From assembly GCF_017304635.1 (NCBI RefSeq), contig NZ_JAFKMA010000001.1:868001-932000 (forward strand): a DNA stretch of 64,000 nt. Direction: 5' to 3'. The notes under the pieces were generated by a model. That model worked only from the letters and a program-made list of their open reading frames with translations. It did not search any database and was not told the DNA's origin. Every line of letters begins with the position of its first letter. Position 1 is the first letter of the stretch. This document shows, one piece after another, positions 21,192 through 54,818 of the stretch. The stretch is from Sphingomonas sp. GTDB lineage: Bacteria > Pseudomonadota > Alphaproteobacteria > Sphingomonadales > Sphingomonadaceae. The position numbers and the translations under genes were made by a program.

Positions 21192-22148
21192 ATGCGGATC
21201 ATATTCATGGGAACGCCCGACTTCGCGGTGCCGACGCTCGATGCGCTGGTCGCGGCGGGGCATCGGGTCGTCGCCGCGTACAGCCAGCCGCCGCGCCCGG
21301 GCGGACGGCGCGGGCGCGAGTTGACGCCGTCGCCGGTGCAGGCGCGCGCGGAGGCGCTGGGCATCGCGGTGCGCACGCCGGTGTCGTTGCGCAATGCCGA
21401 GGCGCAGGCGGCGTTCGCGGCGCTCGGGGCCGACGTGGCGGTGGTTGCGGCCTATGGCCTGATCCTGCCGCAGGCGGTGCTGGATGCGCCGACGCACGGC
21501 TGCCTCAACGTCCACGGTTCGCTGCTGCCGCGCTGGCGGGGGGCGGCGCCGATCCAGCGGGCGATCCTGGCCGGCGATGCCGAGACCGGCGTCGGGATCA
21601 TGCAGATGGAGGCTGGGCTCGATACCGGGCCGGTTCTGCTGGAGGGACGGACGCCGATCGCGAACAAGACGGCAGGTGAGCTGACCGTGGAACTGGCGCA
21701 GATGGGTGCTCGGCTGATGGTCGAGGTGCTGGCTGACCTCCCCGCGTTTCCGCCCCAGCCGCAACCCGACGACGGCGTCACTTATGCCGGCAAGATCGAC
21801 AAGGCCGAACTTCGCCTCGATTTCTCGCAACCGAGCGAGCAGGTCGAGCGCCAGGTCCGCGCGTTCAATCCGCCGGGGGCGTTCTTCGAACTGAACGGCG
21901 AGCGTATCCGTGTGCTGTCTGCAGAGCCATATTCCCGCGAGAGCGGGAACCCAGGATTGCAAGCAACGCCGCCCGAGGCTCTGGACCCCCGCCTTCGCCG
22001 GGGAACGGTGGTGGACGATCGACTGACGATCCGATGCGGCGACGGCAGTAATTTGCGCCCCACCCTCGTCCAGCGCGCCGGGCGTGGCGTCATGACGCCA
22101 GACGATCTGCTCCGTGGTTTCCCCATCCCGCCCGGCACGCGGCTGTGA
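21192..22148 (+). CDS. fmt: Methionyl-tRNA formyltransferase, carrying an in-frame palindromic element
   Basis: Formylates initiator Met-tRNA. The 318-residue protein starts [19 protein letters not shown]. The catalytic domain has the [20 protein letters not shown] loop and the conserved Asp of GLDTGPVL. The C-terminal OB-fold domain ([15 protein letters not shown] onward) is interrupted at about residues 247-273 by sequence encoded by a bipartite palindrome (21931-22008), read as [10 protein letters not shown]...ALDPRLRRG. Family homology resumes at [14 protein letters not shown]. The reading frame stays open and the gene overlaps truA by 4 nt, so it is presumably functional with an enlarged loop. 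Confidence 0.94.
21931..22008 (+). repeat. Bipartite palindromic element inserted in frame in fmt
   Basis: First hairpin at 21932-21949: 7-bp stem TTCCCGC/GCGGGAA with a GAGA loop. Second imperfect hairpin at 21986-22003 (CCCC/GGGG outer stem). Between them is a CCAGG/CTCTGG-flanked spacer. The architecture and flanking bases match the intergenic copy at 32611. It is translated within Fmt. Confidence 0.75.
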
Positions 22149-32603: not shown

Positions 32604-32610
32604 GATTTCG

Positions 32611-32687
32611 TATTCCCGCGAAAGCGGGAATCCAGAGTCGCGTCCGATCCGCTTAGAGACCCTGGGCTCCTGCTTTCGCAGGAGCAC
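32611..32687. repeat. Bipartite palindromic element (intergenic copy)
   Basis: Two perfect hairpins. The first, 32612-32631, has an 8-bp stem ATTCCCGC/GCGGGAAT and a GAAA loop. The second, 32666-32685, has an 8-bp stem GCTCCTGC/GCAGGAGC and a TTTC loop. The spacer is bounded by CCAGAG and CCCTGG. Its reverse complement matches the dnaE copy nearly base for base at both ends. It lies between the transglycosylase and moaB. Confidence 0.85.
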
Positions 32688-32711
32688 TGAACGATGATAA
32701 GGCAGATTAGC

Positions 32712-37382: not shown

Positions 37383-40300
37383 CTACCCTACCAGTGCGAG
37401 ACGCTGTGGCGGAGCGATCGACACCTCGGCGCCGGTGACGCCGGGGATCGTGGCGAGCCGGTCGGCAAGTTCGACGTCGAGCAGGAAGTCGCGTCCCAGC
37501 AGGATCGTCGCGTGGCCACCATCCGGCAACGTCGCGGTCAGCCGCGCCTCGCCCCGCGCACCACGCGCCTCGGCCAGCAGCGCGGCGATGCCGCCGATCG
37601 CCGCAATGTCGTCGATCGCGATGGCGAGCGTCATGCGAGTCGAGGTGGCGAGGCTCTCGAACGGCTGGATTCGCTTGACCGTGACGCGCGGCGTCTCCTC
37701 ACCCGCCCGGCGATCGAGCTCGACCGTCAGCAGCCCGCAGCCGCCGTTGCGCGCCGCTTCCTCCAGGTCCCCCGCGACCATGTCGTCGAAGCAGGTCACG
37801 ATGAACTGGCCCGACGGATCGGACATCGTCGCCATCATGTATCGCCGCCCCTTGGCGGAGGTGCGCCAGCGCGCTTCCTCGACCAAAGCCGCCATCACCG
37901 CGCCGGCGCGCCCGCCCTCCGGGATCGGCACATCGCCCAGATCGGCGAAGCGCCGCGCGCCGTGCATCTTCGCCAGTTGCGCGAAACGATCGACCGGATG
38001 GGCGGAGAAATAGAAACCGAACGCCTCCTTCTCCTGCTCCATCCGCTCGGCCAGCGTCCAGCGCGCCGACAGCGGCAGCTTGATGTGCGTGCCCGAAGCC
38101 TCGCTCTCGCCGAACAGGCCGCCCTGCCCGCTCGTCTTCTGCTCGTGGACGCGCGCCGCCGTCGCCAGCACGGTTTCGGCACACGCGTAGATGCCGGCGC
38201 GATTGGCGTCGATCGCATCGAACGCGCCGGCCGCAGCCAGCGTCTCCAGCTGGCGCTTGTTGAGCAGGCGCGGATCGACCCGATGCGCGAAATCGTCGAG
38301 GCTGGCGAACGTGCCGCGCCCCTCGCGCTCCTCGACCAGCTTCTCCATCGCCCCTTCGCCGACCGACTTGAGGCCGGCGAGCGCATAGCGAACCGCCAAT
38401 TTCTGCCCGTGCTCCTGCGGAAGCAGGAGCCCAGGGTCACTAGCGCTACGCTCCTGGCTCTGGATTCCTGCTTGCGCAGGAATACTGGCTATCTCCTGCA
38501 CGTCGAACTCGGCCAGGCTGGCATTCACGTCGGGCGGTAGGATTTCGACCCCCAGCCGGCGCATGTCGTCGACGAACACCGCCAGTTTGTCGGTCAGGTG
38601 GATGTCGTAACACATGGACGCGGCAAAGAATTCCCCCGGATGATGCGCCTTCAGCCACGCCGTCTGGTACGCGAGTAGCGCGTAGGCCGCGGCGTGGCTC
38701 TTGTTGAAGCCATAGCCGGCGAACTTGTCGATCAAGTCGAACAGCTCGTTGGCCTTCGCCTTGTCGATGCCGTGCGCTTCCTTGCAGCCGGCGACGAACG
38801 TGTCGCGCTGCGCGTCCATCTCCGCCTTGATCTTCTTGCCCATCGCGCGACGCAGCAGGTCGGCGCCGCCGAGCGAATAGCCCGCCAGCACCTGCGCCGC
38901 CTGCATCACCTGTTCCTGATAGACGAAGATGCCGTAGGTCTCGGCCAGGATCGGTTCGAGCAAGGGATGCGGGTAGGTGATCGGCTCCTGCCCGTTCTTG
39001 CGCCGGCCGAAGCTCGGGATGTTGTCCATCGGGCCGGGGCGGTAAAGCGAGACGAGCGCGATGATGTCGCCGAAATTGGACGGGCGCACCGCCGACAGCG
39101 TGCGCCGCATCCCTTCCGATTCGAGCTGAAACACGCCGACCGTATCGCCGCGCTGGAGCAGCTTGTAGACGCCCTCGTCGTCCCAGGTCAGCGCGTCGAG
39201 GTCGAGCGCGATGCCGCGCTTCGCCAGCAAAGCGACCGCCTTCTTCAGCACCGACAGCGTCTTGAGGCCGAGGAAGTCGAACTTCACGAGGCCGGCGCCT
39301 TCGACATATTTCATGTCGAACTGCGTGACCGGCATATCGGAGCGCGGGTCGCGATAGAGCGGGACCAGCTCGGCGAGTGGACGGTCGCCGATCACCACGC
39401 CGGCGGCGTGGGTCGAGCTGTGTCGCGGCAGCCCCTCCAGCTTCATCGCCAGGTCGAGCAGGTGGCGTACGTCCTTGTCGCCGCGATATTCGGCGGCGAG
39501 CTCGGTCACGCCGTTGAGCGCGCGGTCGAGCGTCCACGGATCGGTCGGATGGTTGGGCACCAGCTTGGCGAGGCGATCGACCTGGCCGTAGCTCATCTGG
39601 AGCACGCGGCCGGTATCCTTGAGCACCGCGCGCGCCTTCATCGTCCCGAAGGTGATGATCTGCGCGACCTGATCGCGGCCGTACTTCGCCTGGACGTAGC
39701 GGATCACCTCGCCACGCCGGGTTTCGCAGAAATCGATGTCGAAGTCGGGCATCGACACGCGTTCCGGATTGAGGAAGCGTTCGAACAGCAGGCCGAGCTT
39801 GATCGGATCGAGATCGGTGATCGTCAGCGCCCAGGCGACCACGCTGCCGGCACCCGACCCGCGCCCCGGCCCGACCGGGATGTCGTTCGCCTTCGCCCAT
39901 TGGATGAAGTCGGCGACGATCAGGAAATAGCCGGGGAAGCCCATGCTGATGATGACGTCGAGTTCGAATTCGAGGCGGTCGCGGTATTCCTGCTCCCAGC
40001 CGGGCTCACCGCCCGTGCCGAGTTCGAGGATGCGGTCGAGCCGCGCCCGTAAGCCCGCGCGTCCGGCCTCGCGCAACGCCTCGGCTTCGGCGCTCGGATC
40101 GCCGGCGAGGCTCGGCAGAATCGGCTTGCGCTTGGGTGCCGCGACCGCGCAGCGCTGTGCCACAACCAGGGTATTGGCGATCGCCTCGGGCAGGTCGGCG
40201 AACAGCGCGCGCATGTCCTTGGCTGGCTTCATCCACGCATCGGGCGAGCTTTTCGGGCGATCGTCGCTGGCGACGTAGCTTGACGAGGCGATGCACAGCA

Positions 40301-40958
40301 TCGTGTCGTGCGCCTCGCGGAAATCCTCTTCCGCGAAGCAGCACGGATTGGTCGCGACGATCGGCAGGTTGCGCGCATAGGCTAGGTCGAGCAACTCGCC
40401 TTCCGCCTTGCCCTCGACCGGATCGAACCGCCGCGCGATCTCGATATAGAGCCGGTCGCCGAAGATCGCCTGCAACCGGTCGGCATAGGCGTGCGCCCGA
40501 TCGGGCTGGTCCTCTGCGAACAGTCGCGCGAGCGCGCCCTCCCCGCCCGCGGTCAGCGCGATCAGCCCGTCCGAATGTGCGGCGAGCTTGTCGATATCCA
40601 CATGCGGAGCCTGCTCGACCGGGCGGCCGAGATGCGCGTCGCTGACCAGCCGGCACAGGTTGAGATACCCCGCCTCGTCCTGCGCATAGAGCGCGAGCCA
40701 GTCGGTCTGCACCGCCGCCCCCTCGGGCAGATCAGGCCGCGCGACCCCTAGCATCGTGCCGATGACCGGTTGCACCCCGGCATCGCTCGCCGCGCCGGAG
40801 AATTGCATGGCGGCGTAGAGCCCGTTGCGGTCGGTCAGGGCGGCGGCGGGAAAGCCCAGTTCGCGCGCGCGCTTGGCGATCGCCTTCGGCTCGATCGCGC
40901 CGTCGAGCATCGTATAGGACGAAAAGATACGCAGGGGCACGAAGCCGGAATGGGGCAT
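37383..40958 (-). CDS. dnaE: DNA polymerase III alpha subunit DnaE, with in-frame palindromic insertion
   Basis: Replicative polymerase catalytic subunit, 1191 residues. The PHP domain is N-terminal (FVPLRIFSSYTMLDGAIEP onward). The polymerase core has GPGRGSGAGSVVAWAL, catalytic Asp residues in MPDFDIDFCETRRG, and GHAAAYA-type fingers (KSHAAAYALLAYQTAW). HhH and OB domains follow. Residues ~824-852, between AEFDVQE and VRYALAGLKSVGEGAM, are encoded by a bipartite palindromic repeat (38404-38487) and read IASIPAQAGIQSQ...LLLPQEHG. Homologues join directly across this point, so the protein is about 28 residues longer. The frame is intact. Confidence 0.97.
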   Translation of the reverse strand: MPHSGFVPLRIFSSYTMLDGAIEPKAIAKRARELGFPAAALTDRNGLYAAMQFSGAASDAGVQPVIGTMLGVARPDLPEGAAVQTDWLALYAQDEAGYLNLCRLVSDAHLGRPVEQAPHVDIDKLAAHSDGLIALTAGGEGALARLFAEDQPDRAHAYADRLQAIFGDRLYIEIARRFDPVEGKAEGELLDLAYARNLPIVATNPCCFAEEDFREAHDTMLCIASSSYVASDDRPKSSPDAWMKPAKDMRALFADLPEAIANTLVVAQRCAVAAPKRKPILPSLAGDPSAEAEALREAGRAGLRARLDRILELGTGGEPGWEQEYRDRLEFELDVIISMGFPGYFLIVADFIQWAKANDIPVGPGRGSGAGSVVAWALTITDLDPIKLGLLFERFLNPERVSMPDFDIDFCETRRGEVIRYVQAKYGRDQVAQIITFGTMKARAVLKDTGRVLQMSYGQVDRLAKLVPNHPTDPWTLDRALNGVTELAAEYRGDKDVRHLLDLAMKLEGLPRHSSTHAAGVVIGDRPLAELVPLYRDPRSDMPVTQFDMKYVEGAGLVKFDFLGLKTLSVLKKAVALLAKRGIALDLDALTWDDEGVYKLLQRGDTVGVFQLESEGMRRTLSAVRPSNFGDIIALVSLYRPGPMDNIPSFGRRKNGQEPITYPHPLLEPILAETYGIFVYQEQVMQAAQVLAGYSLGGADLLRRAMGKKIKAEMDAQRDTFVAGCKEAHGIDKAKANELFDLIDKFAGYGFNKSHAAAYALLAYQTAWLKAHHPGEFFAASMCYDIHLTDKLAVFVDDMRRLGVEILPPDVNASLAEFDVQEIASIPAQAGIQSQERSASDPGLLLPQEHGQKLAVRYALAGLKSVGEGAMEKLVEEREGRGTFASLDDFAHRVDPRLLNKRQLETLAAAGAFDAIDANRAGIYACAETVLATAARVHEQKTSGQGGLFGESEASGTHIKLPLSARWTLAERMEQEKEAFGFYFSAHPVDRFAQLAKMHGARRFADLGDVPIPEGGRAGAVMAALVEEARWRTSAKGRRYMMATMSDPSGQFIVTCFDDMVAGDLEEAARNGGCGLLTVELDRRAGEETPRVTVKRIQPFESLATSTRMTLAIAIDDIAAIGGIAALLAEARGARGEARLTATLPDGGHATILLGRDFLLDVELADRLATIPGVTGAEVSIAPPQRLALVG
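38404..38487. repeat. Bipartite palindromic element inserted in frame in dnaE
   Basis: Hairpin at 38411-38430: 8-bp stem GCTCCTGC/GCAGGAGC with a GGAA loop. Hairpin at 38464-38483: 8-bp stem ATTCCTGC/GCAGGAAT with a TTGC loop. The spacer starts CCCAGGGTC and ends CTCTGG, as in the reverse complement of the copy at 32611. It is translated as part of DnaE. Confidence 0.85.
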
Positions 40959-53883: not shown

Positions 53884-53890
53884 CGGTCTT

Positions 53891-53968
53891 GTGCTCCTGC
53901 GAAAGCAGGAGCCTAGAGCCAAAAGCGAGGGCCTCCGTGGCCCTGGGCTCCTGCTTTCGCAGGAGCAC
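53891..53968. repeat. Bipartite palindromic element between zwf and pgl
   Basis: Two perfect hairpins of the same sequence in inverted order. The first, 53893-53912, has stem GCTCCTGC/GCAGGAGC and a GAAA loop. The second, 53947-53966, has the same stem with a TTTC loop. GTGCTCC and GGAGCAC end the element, so the whole 78-bp unit is an inverted repeat. Same family as the copies in dnaE, fmt and at 32611. Confidence 0.85.
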
Positions 53969-53983
53969 GACGAGGAACCGATA

Positions 53984-54720: not shown

Positions 54721-54818
54721 TCGTCACCCCGGGCTTGTCCCGGGGTCCACCGTGCCGCAAAGCGTGCACCCATGGGGTGTTCGGCGCAGTGGATGCCGGG
54801 ACAAGCCCGGCATGACGA
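54721..54818. repeat. Second-family palindromic repeat between pgl and edd
   Basis: Terminal TCGTCA/TGACGA inverted ends enclose two perfect hairpins: ACCCCGGG/CCCGGGGT with a CTTGT loop (54726-54746) and ATGCCGGG/CCCGGCAT with an ACAAG loop (54793-54813). It is distinct from the GCTCCTGC family. Its right end abuts the edd ribosome site (AGGTGGG). Confidence 0.85.

Follow-up and report, generated by a model that had tools for sequence, protein, structure and literature searches.

The dnaE gene and its inserted repeat

The window, that is the whole stretch of 64,000 nucleotides analysed here, comes from a Sphingomonas genome and carries the gene for the DNA polymerase III alpha subunit, DnaE (Table 1). 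The NCBIfam model NF004226 scores this open reading frame at 1313 bits against a cut-off of 1002, which assigns the product to the replicative alpha subunits. PHP, DNA_pol3_alpha, finger and HHH_6 domains are recognised in the protein, and the nearest named records are DnaE proteins of Sphingomonas. The same genome also harbours a second, diverged DnaE-like gene (C7:1291806-1292159, 34% identical in this region and with a 1438-residue open frame), which is probably the error-prone DnaE2.

Inside dnaE lies a doublet of two hairpins, each with a perfect 8-bp stem and a 4-nt loop, as the first-pass annotation had described. A covariance model of the repeat (see below) reports this copy at 38406-38486 on the minus strand (95.0 bits) and at 38408-38488 on the plus strand (80.2 bits). 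Translated in the dnaE frame, the 81-bp unit reads SIPAQAGIQSQERSASDPGLLLPQEHG and supplies residues 825-851 of the protein, 27 residues in total; the limits proposed at first pass, residues 824-852, contain the insert but are slightly too wide. The DnaE loop segment comprises 42 residues in the window and 15 in the nearest rows of the DnaE tree; the difference, 27 residues (81 bp), is exactly the unit length given by the covariance model.

Table 1. Location of dnaE, of the repeat within it and of the other repeat copies in the window
Feature	Position	Strand	Basis
dnaE, DNA polymerase III alpha subunit, host of the insert	37383..40958	-	ORF, 1191 aa; NF004226; domain matches
REP doublet within dnaE	38406..38488	-	covariance model, 95.0 bits; multi-copy in the genome
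Hairpin 1, stem GCTCCTGC/GCAGGAGC, loop GGAA	38411..38430		sequence
Inter-hairpin spacer, 33 nt, borders conserved, centre variable	38431..38463		20-copy alignment
Hairpin 2, stem ATTCCTGC/GCAGGAAT, loop TTGC	38464..38483		sequence
Doublet copy outside genes	32607..32690		model, 90.6 bits; L014: strand and phase shared on both sides, 2 stops
Doublet copy outside genes (zwf-pgl copy of the first-pass annotation)	53888..53971		model, 95.8 bits; L017: no common coding phase
Diverged doublet copy outside genes	21926..22009		model, 66.3 bits; L171: no common coding phase

A repeat family close to the CGTC-1 REPs

The unit is one of many. A 92-bp query returns 54 BLAST matches in the own genome (both strands, E<=10), and a covariance model built from 20 copies, the dnaE copy included, with a consensus structure of 2 x 8 pairs and 4-nt loops, reports 133 hits in its 3.18 Mb (both strands, E<=1). 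After merging of hits, 42 distinct places are retained at E<=1e-6, and the family thus extends beyond the window. Most of these places measure 82 bp (28) or 81 bp (9, the size class of the dnaE copy), the remainder being of 86 bp (two), 87 bp (one) or shortened (60 and 70 bp). Full doublets of 81-87 bp account for 40 of the 42, the model itself being that of a doublet, so that single units may escape detection. In the alignment of the 20 copies, both ends are strongly conserved while the centre of the spacer is variable. Of the two other window copies put forward at first pass, the one at 32611 is recovered by the model as a doublet, and the doublet at 53888-53971 fits the zwf-pgl copy. Among 61 genomes (the own genome and 60 relatives), a family match at E<=0.001 is found in 23: 21 of the 37 genus members and 2 of the 24 genomes from elsewhere. 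Elsewhere in the window, positions 54721-54818 hold another palindromic pair (TCGTCACCCCGGGCTTGTCCCGGGG ... CCGGGACAAGCCCGGCATGACGA) with a CGTC-like start and 37-nt arms that are 84% complementary, possibly representing a second REP-type family.

The loop at this site of DnaE is free to change in sequence and, by a few residues, in length, and one could imagine that a normal variable loop happens to look like the repeat, or else that the assembly is in error at a repeat. Such an origin is hardly credible in view of the 95-bit score, the two perfect hairpins and the borders, which are those of the other aligned copies. The best other copy in the genome is only 89% identical to the dnaE copy, so the assembly has not collapsed it with another copy; moreover, the assembly consists of 7 contigs and is rated 99.9% complete.

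The family is very close to the CGTC-1 REPs, for which the available text of the original report describes an 8-bp stem, a 4-nt loop, a CCA tail and a mostly head-to-head dimeric arrangement (Di Nocera et al. 2013, PMC3733652). The dnaE copy and the consensus both exhibit the 8-bp stem and the 4-nt loop, a CCAG tail follows the first stem in 19 of the 20 copies (CTAG in one), and nearly all places are spaced head-to-head doublets; as with CGTC-1, the copies are mostly intergenic, in-frame reading within a gene being seen for CGTC-1 in some genes and for the window family in dnaE. In contrast, the CGTC, TGTC or CCTC tag of CGTC-1 is replaced in the 20-copy consensus by a CGT directly abutting the stem, with ACG at the other end. 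Likewise, CGTC-1 stems start almost invariably with A and T pairs, whereas those of the window family often begin with GC or GT, and in the dnaE copy one hairpin starts with AT and the other with GC. The same source reports that CGTC-1 REPs are abundant in alphaproteobacteria, S. wittichii included, and that the dRS3 repeats of Neisseria are CGTC-1 elements found mostly in large clusters (PMC3733652).

Two other systems of palindromes invite comparison. REPINs consist of two inverted REPs forming one mobile-type unit that is mobilised by RAYT (Y1) transposases, and the window doublet resembles them in this arrangement; in contrast with the REPIN/RAYT pair, the own genome yields no Y1_Tnp match. 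Palindromic elements read in frame within Rickettsia genes were reportedly described by Ogata in 2000 and 2002. According to the accessible parts of later accounts, including a 2024 review that summarises the in-frame Rickettsia elements, these are about 150 bp long and nearly half of 44 insertions in R. conorii lie in ORFs (PMC10969869), with an in-frame element in yet another gene (PMC5656822). Like the window unit, they are palindromes read in frame within protein genes and add tens of residues; unlike them, the window unit measures 81 bp and only one of the tested copies is intragenic. The likeness to the Rickettsia elements noted at first pass is therefore apt, but a closer precedent exists, since REPs have been reported in frame inside genes, many of them for DNA synthesis or repair, with one CGTC REP in the dnaE of R. 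conorii itself, in the text available to us (PMC3733652). A class-wide search, in which 375 of 385 genomes matched, identified no Rickettsia with a DnaE insert among the matches listed; four small genomes have DnaE open frames of 1140-1142 residues.

Copies inside genes are rare

The position of the copies relative to genes, a count that the first-pass annotation had called for, was assessed with a hexamer coding score trained on 39 ORFs of the window and applied to 240 bp on each side of a copy. The 48 copies comprise 28 BLAST matches and 20 fetched later, some of the latter being weak, shortened or clustered. The dnaE copy is the only one of the 48 that is read on a single strand and in a single phase with no stop across it. 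Nine further copies have a common strand and phase on their two sides but contain one to three stops; two of these, L169 and L173, whose flanks both show a clean coding signal in one phase, lie between genes, with a gene end and a gene start next to them. Thirty-four long candidate ORFs running across 28 copies were also considered, and all except the dnaE ORF are spurious or intergenic according to the frame test. By comparison, random 81-bp placements in the window pass the same test in 457 of 1000 cases (46%, an expectation that may be somewhat high, since control placements and training ORFs come from one and the same window), and the difference from 1/48 corresponds to P of about 8e-12. 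Insertions in genes are therefore either rare or purged. Of 40 full copies, 17 are open in the frame that dnaE reads, and the copy length is divisible by three in only 11 of 42.

An empty turn in close relatives

The unit is missing from the two closest of 32 aligned relatives by identity (L031, 88%, and L043, 89%) as well as from the nearest rows (L193, L158, L114, L043 and L164) of a tree made without the two variable turns of DnaE, and the own genome is the sole one in which this particular insertion is seen. The first-pass annotation expected relatives to join the flanking segments directly, which they do not: a short loop is present, the segment measuring 15-16 residues in most aligned rows (151 of 199). 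Nor do all relatives carry unrelated sequence of the same length. The L031 segment, with 22 residues, may retain part of another hairpin. The alignment omits 3 of 234 loci that miss an anchor motif (L044, L053 and L259), and L044 and L053, aligned separately, have no insert at this turn. Dropping identical DnaE cores reduces 231 sequences to 198. The tree, also of 198 rows, excludes the window's own gene (L111), one of the 199 rows. Rows L141-L164 were picked as the best matches to an insert-bearing query, hence insert rates among the 199 rows are not population frequencies. This pattern of presence and absence suggests that the family is mobile and that the dnaE copy arrived as a unit. When filled and empty loops are compared (five groups per turn), the flanking loop differs among relatives, which makes a target duplication and the exact junctions unreadable.

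In-frame coding palindromes are recognised by their position inside a conserved gene, a preserved frame and their absence from orthologues, all of which are observed here. The structural setting, which the first-pass annotation had proposed to examine, was obtained from an AlphaFold2 model of moderate quality, based on 33 sequences (mean pLDDT 68.9, pTM 0.54), that matches the solved structures of PolIII alpha. Two predicted strands, residues 819-823 and 853-857, flank a stretch with pLDDT below 50 that covers exactly residues 825-851, one of 18 low-confidence stretches in the model (17 being elsewhere in DnaE). By sequence, the insertion site corresponds to the interval from residue 827 to residue 831 in E. 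coli, and the insert sits inside the HHH_6 match (residues 803-921). The insert is thus probably the disordered tip of a loop at a β-turn, at the start of the HHH_6 region, if the model is followed. The first proposal, that a REP- or MITE-like element inserted without breaking the frame and that the protein tolerates it as a loop, agrees with the multi-copy nature of the unit, its absence from the closest DnaE relatives and its coincidence with this predicted tip.

Other palindromes at the same turn and at a second one

A search of the genus with the insert-bearing DnaE matched 290 of 295 genomes at E<=1e-20 and, among the matches listed, the whole query is covered in the own genome and 15 others. 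At the same turn, a different, CGTC-like doublet of 55 bp, TGTTCACCCGCGAAGGCGGGTGCCCAG-A-CTGGGTCCCCGCCTTCGCGGGGAAACA, is carried by 13 distinct genomes from a single clade (L049, Sphingomonas faeni, L055, S. albertensis and others); in translation it reads CSPAKAGAQTGSPPSRGN, with minor variants. An unrelated palindrome, CCCCTCCCC (type CCCCTCCCCTTCAGGGGAGGGG), occupies the turn in three lineages, with exact inverted repeats between the insert ends of 29 bp (L152), 21 bp (L153) and 15 bp (L190). A fourth lineage of this type is apparently cut by a contig end (L155), and L157 has a lone hairpin of the CCCCTCCCC type at the turn.

Both elements are repeats in their own right. The 55-bp element yields at least 80 matches, counting both strands, in six of seven genomes searched (for the best 40 of 125-162 candidates) and 3 in the seventh; one of the six, G205, has an empty dnaE. 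For the CCCCTCCCC element, matches on both strands number 48 in G122 (the source of L152), 11 in G078, 55 in G236, 77 in G125, 79 in G250, 2 in G228 and 12 in the own genome. Copies of the latter family in the own genome include those at C3:83928, C2:127066, C2:81288, C7:1376366 and C3:9140. Some relatives thus carry other repeats at the same spot, and DnaE seems to have a turn able to absorb palindrome insertions. On the FastTree phylogeny of 198 rows, parsimony requires a minimum of 13 changes at this turn, of which about nine fall within the clade with the 55-bp doublet.

Inserts of at least 10 residues in the 199 rows cluster at two internal places, the window turn and a second one near residues 310-325. 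Elsewhere, inserts of this size are confined to the N-terminus, where they reflect the choice of start, to a single outlier of 105 residues near 390 and, in four rows, to inserts of 12 residues near 1180. The second turn lies between predicted helices 288-312 and 321-339, and parsimony on the 198-row tree gives at least 18 changes there. It reaches 44 residues or more in 31 rows, 19 of which hold about four palindrome types while 12 hold none that is recognised; these types are assigned from peptides and inverted repeats, not from copy counts in those genomes. Left out of the parsimony counts for the two turns are L155, L157, L156 and L031 at the window turn and, at the other, long or cut loops with no recognised palindrome. 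Two sequences, L235 and L079, have in-frame CGTC-like single hairpins at the second turn (PVLLLSQGN and LDPGLRRGT). In-frame inserts resembling two further repeat families, of the types VRAEPVEA/FDKLSANG and FVSSEVET/FSTSLETNG, are seen in L061, L063, L237 and L240 and in L262, L034, L270, L271, L281 and L138, with exact inverted repeats of 13-15 bp in five of these ten rows. The close relatives L085 and L138 (tree distance 0.041) have different palindrome types at this turn.

The concentration of inserts at two internal places, together with at least five separate occupations of the window turn by two unrelated palindrome families (in the window, the 13-genome clade, L152, L153 and L190), could also mean that the turn is a preferred target of the insertion machinery, at which different palindromes keep arriving. 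We regard this as unlikely, although filled and empty states alternate in one clade as such a preference would have it (see below): palindromes of more types occupy the second turn, and by eye the sites have no obvious target sequence in common, so that tolerance of these turns fits better. Selection, rather than target choice, would then shape the pattern.

Turnover within one clade

The clade of the 55-bp doublet comprises 24 rows, 13 filled and 11 empty at the window turn. On a DNA tree of these rows and three outgroup rows, made with the turns removed, the filled and empty states require 7 changes, at least 4 of them forced by strongly supported branches. Shuffled labels give 9.3 changes on average, and 36 of 500 shuffles are as low as 7, indicating that the filled rows are only weakly clustered. 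At four-fold sites, pooled divergence is 0.023 inside the element and 0.225 across the remainder of dnaE (78 pairs, with about 13 sites each), or 0.012 and 0.221 when L144 is left out, and selection on the DNA of the element is possible. This sameness is what would be expected if the inserts were useful, the segment or its hairpins modulating DnaE through clamp or DNA contacts or mRNA stability, and were kept by selection. Such a benefit is nevertheless quite improbable, as the element is missing from 11 of the 24 close relatives, and the many near-identical copies in six of the seven genomes searched mean that gene conversion, exchange of dnaE segments or fresh insertion can explain the low divergence. 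For the window insert, seen in the own genome only, persistence under selection is not measurable.

Mobilisation

The available text on CGTC-type REPs describes them as apparently devoid of a dedicated transposase (PMC3733652). A profile search with PF01797 (Y1_Tnp, the RAYT domain) returned no hit in the own genome, the control being positive in 5 of 14 genomes. Across the genus, Y1_Tnp is found in 33 of 295 genomes; this search reports none in G000, G034, G024, G204, G066, G217, G205, G122, G078, G236 or G125 and finds the domain in G250, one of the genomes rich in the CCCCTCCCC family. The six genomes with most matches to the 55-bp element, among those searched for it, are without a Y1_Tnp hit. 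A RAYT as the required mobiliser was accordingly rejected. A present-day Y1 transposase is thus not required, in agreement with the account given for CGTC-type REPs (PMC3733652), and the mobilising enzyme is probably not a Y1/RAYT transposase now present in the own genome.

Interpretation

Taken as a whole, the locus is very probably explained by a REP doublet similar to CGTC-1 that inserted in a tolerant turn of DnaE and is translated in frame. A small non-autonomous repeat would have spread over the genome, and one 81-bp copy, its length a multiple of three and its frame open, would have landed in the turn between the two β-strands, where it would be translated as 27 extra, probably disordered, residues. 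Palindromes of this kind would insert widely, copies in genes being normally purged and survivors remaining in tolerant DnaE turns; the dnaE copy would survive because its turn tolerates a change in length. The DnaE protein would carry the extra residues and function with them.

Intragenic REPs being already known, in R. conorii dnaE among others, this kind of insertion is not new. In the consulted part of the CGTC-1 report, REPs in genes of one functional category occupy different sites, and a shared position is mentioned only for Xanthomonas recB (PMC3733652); by comparison with that text, one DnaE turn is hit repeatedly here. In the open-access literature on intragenic palindromes and REPs, dnaE and sphingomonads, we found no account of a single DnaE turn being entered repeatedly, and what appears new is this convergence, that is, the recurrent use of one turn by several families. 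A broader proposition, which we advance as a tentative one, is that the two DnaE turns are recurrent landing sites in Sphingomonas, where several unrelated palindrome families come, homogenise and leave on the scale of species divergence, by means of a system other than Y1/RAYT. If so, DnaE would serve as a natural trap in which the activity of palindromic elements is recorded.

The window gene offers a clear natural case in which repeat DNA lengthens a replicative polymerase by a peptide segment and apparently does not destroy the enzyme. As members of Sphingomonas can be grown, and as the DnaE turn is repeatedly filled and emptied in close species, these events can be aligned and may serve for testing how CGTC-type REPs move.
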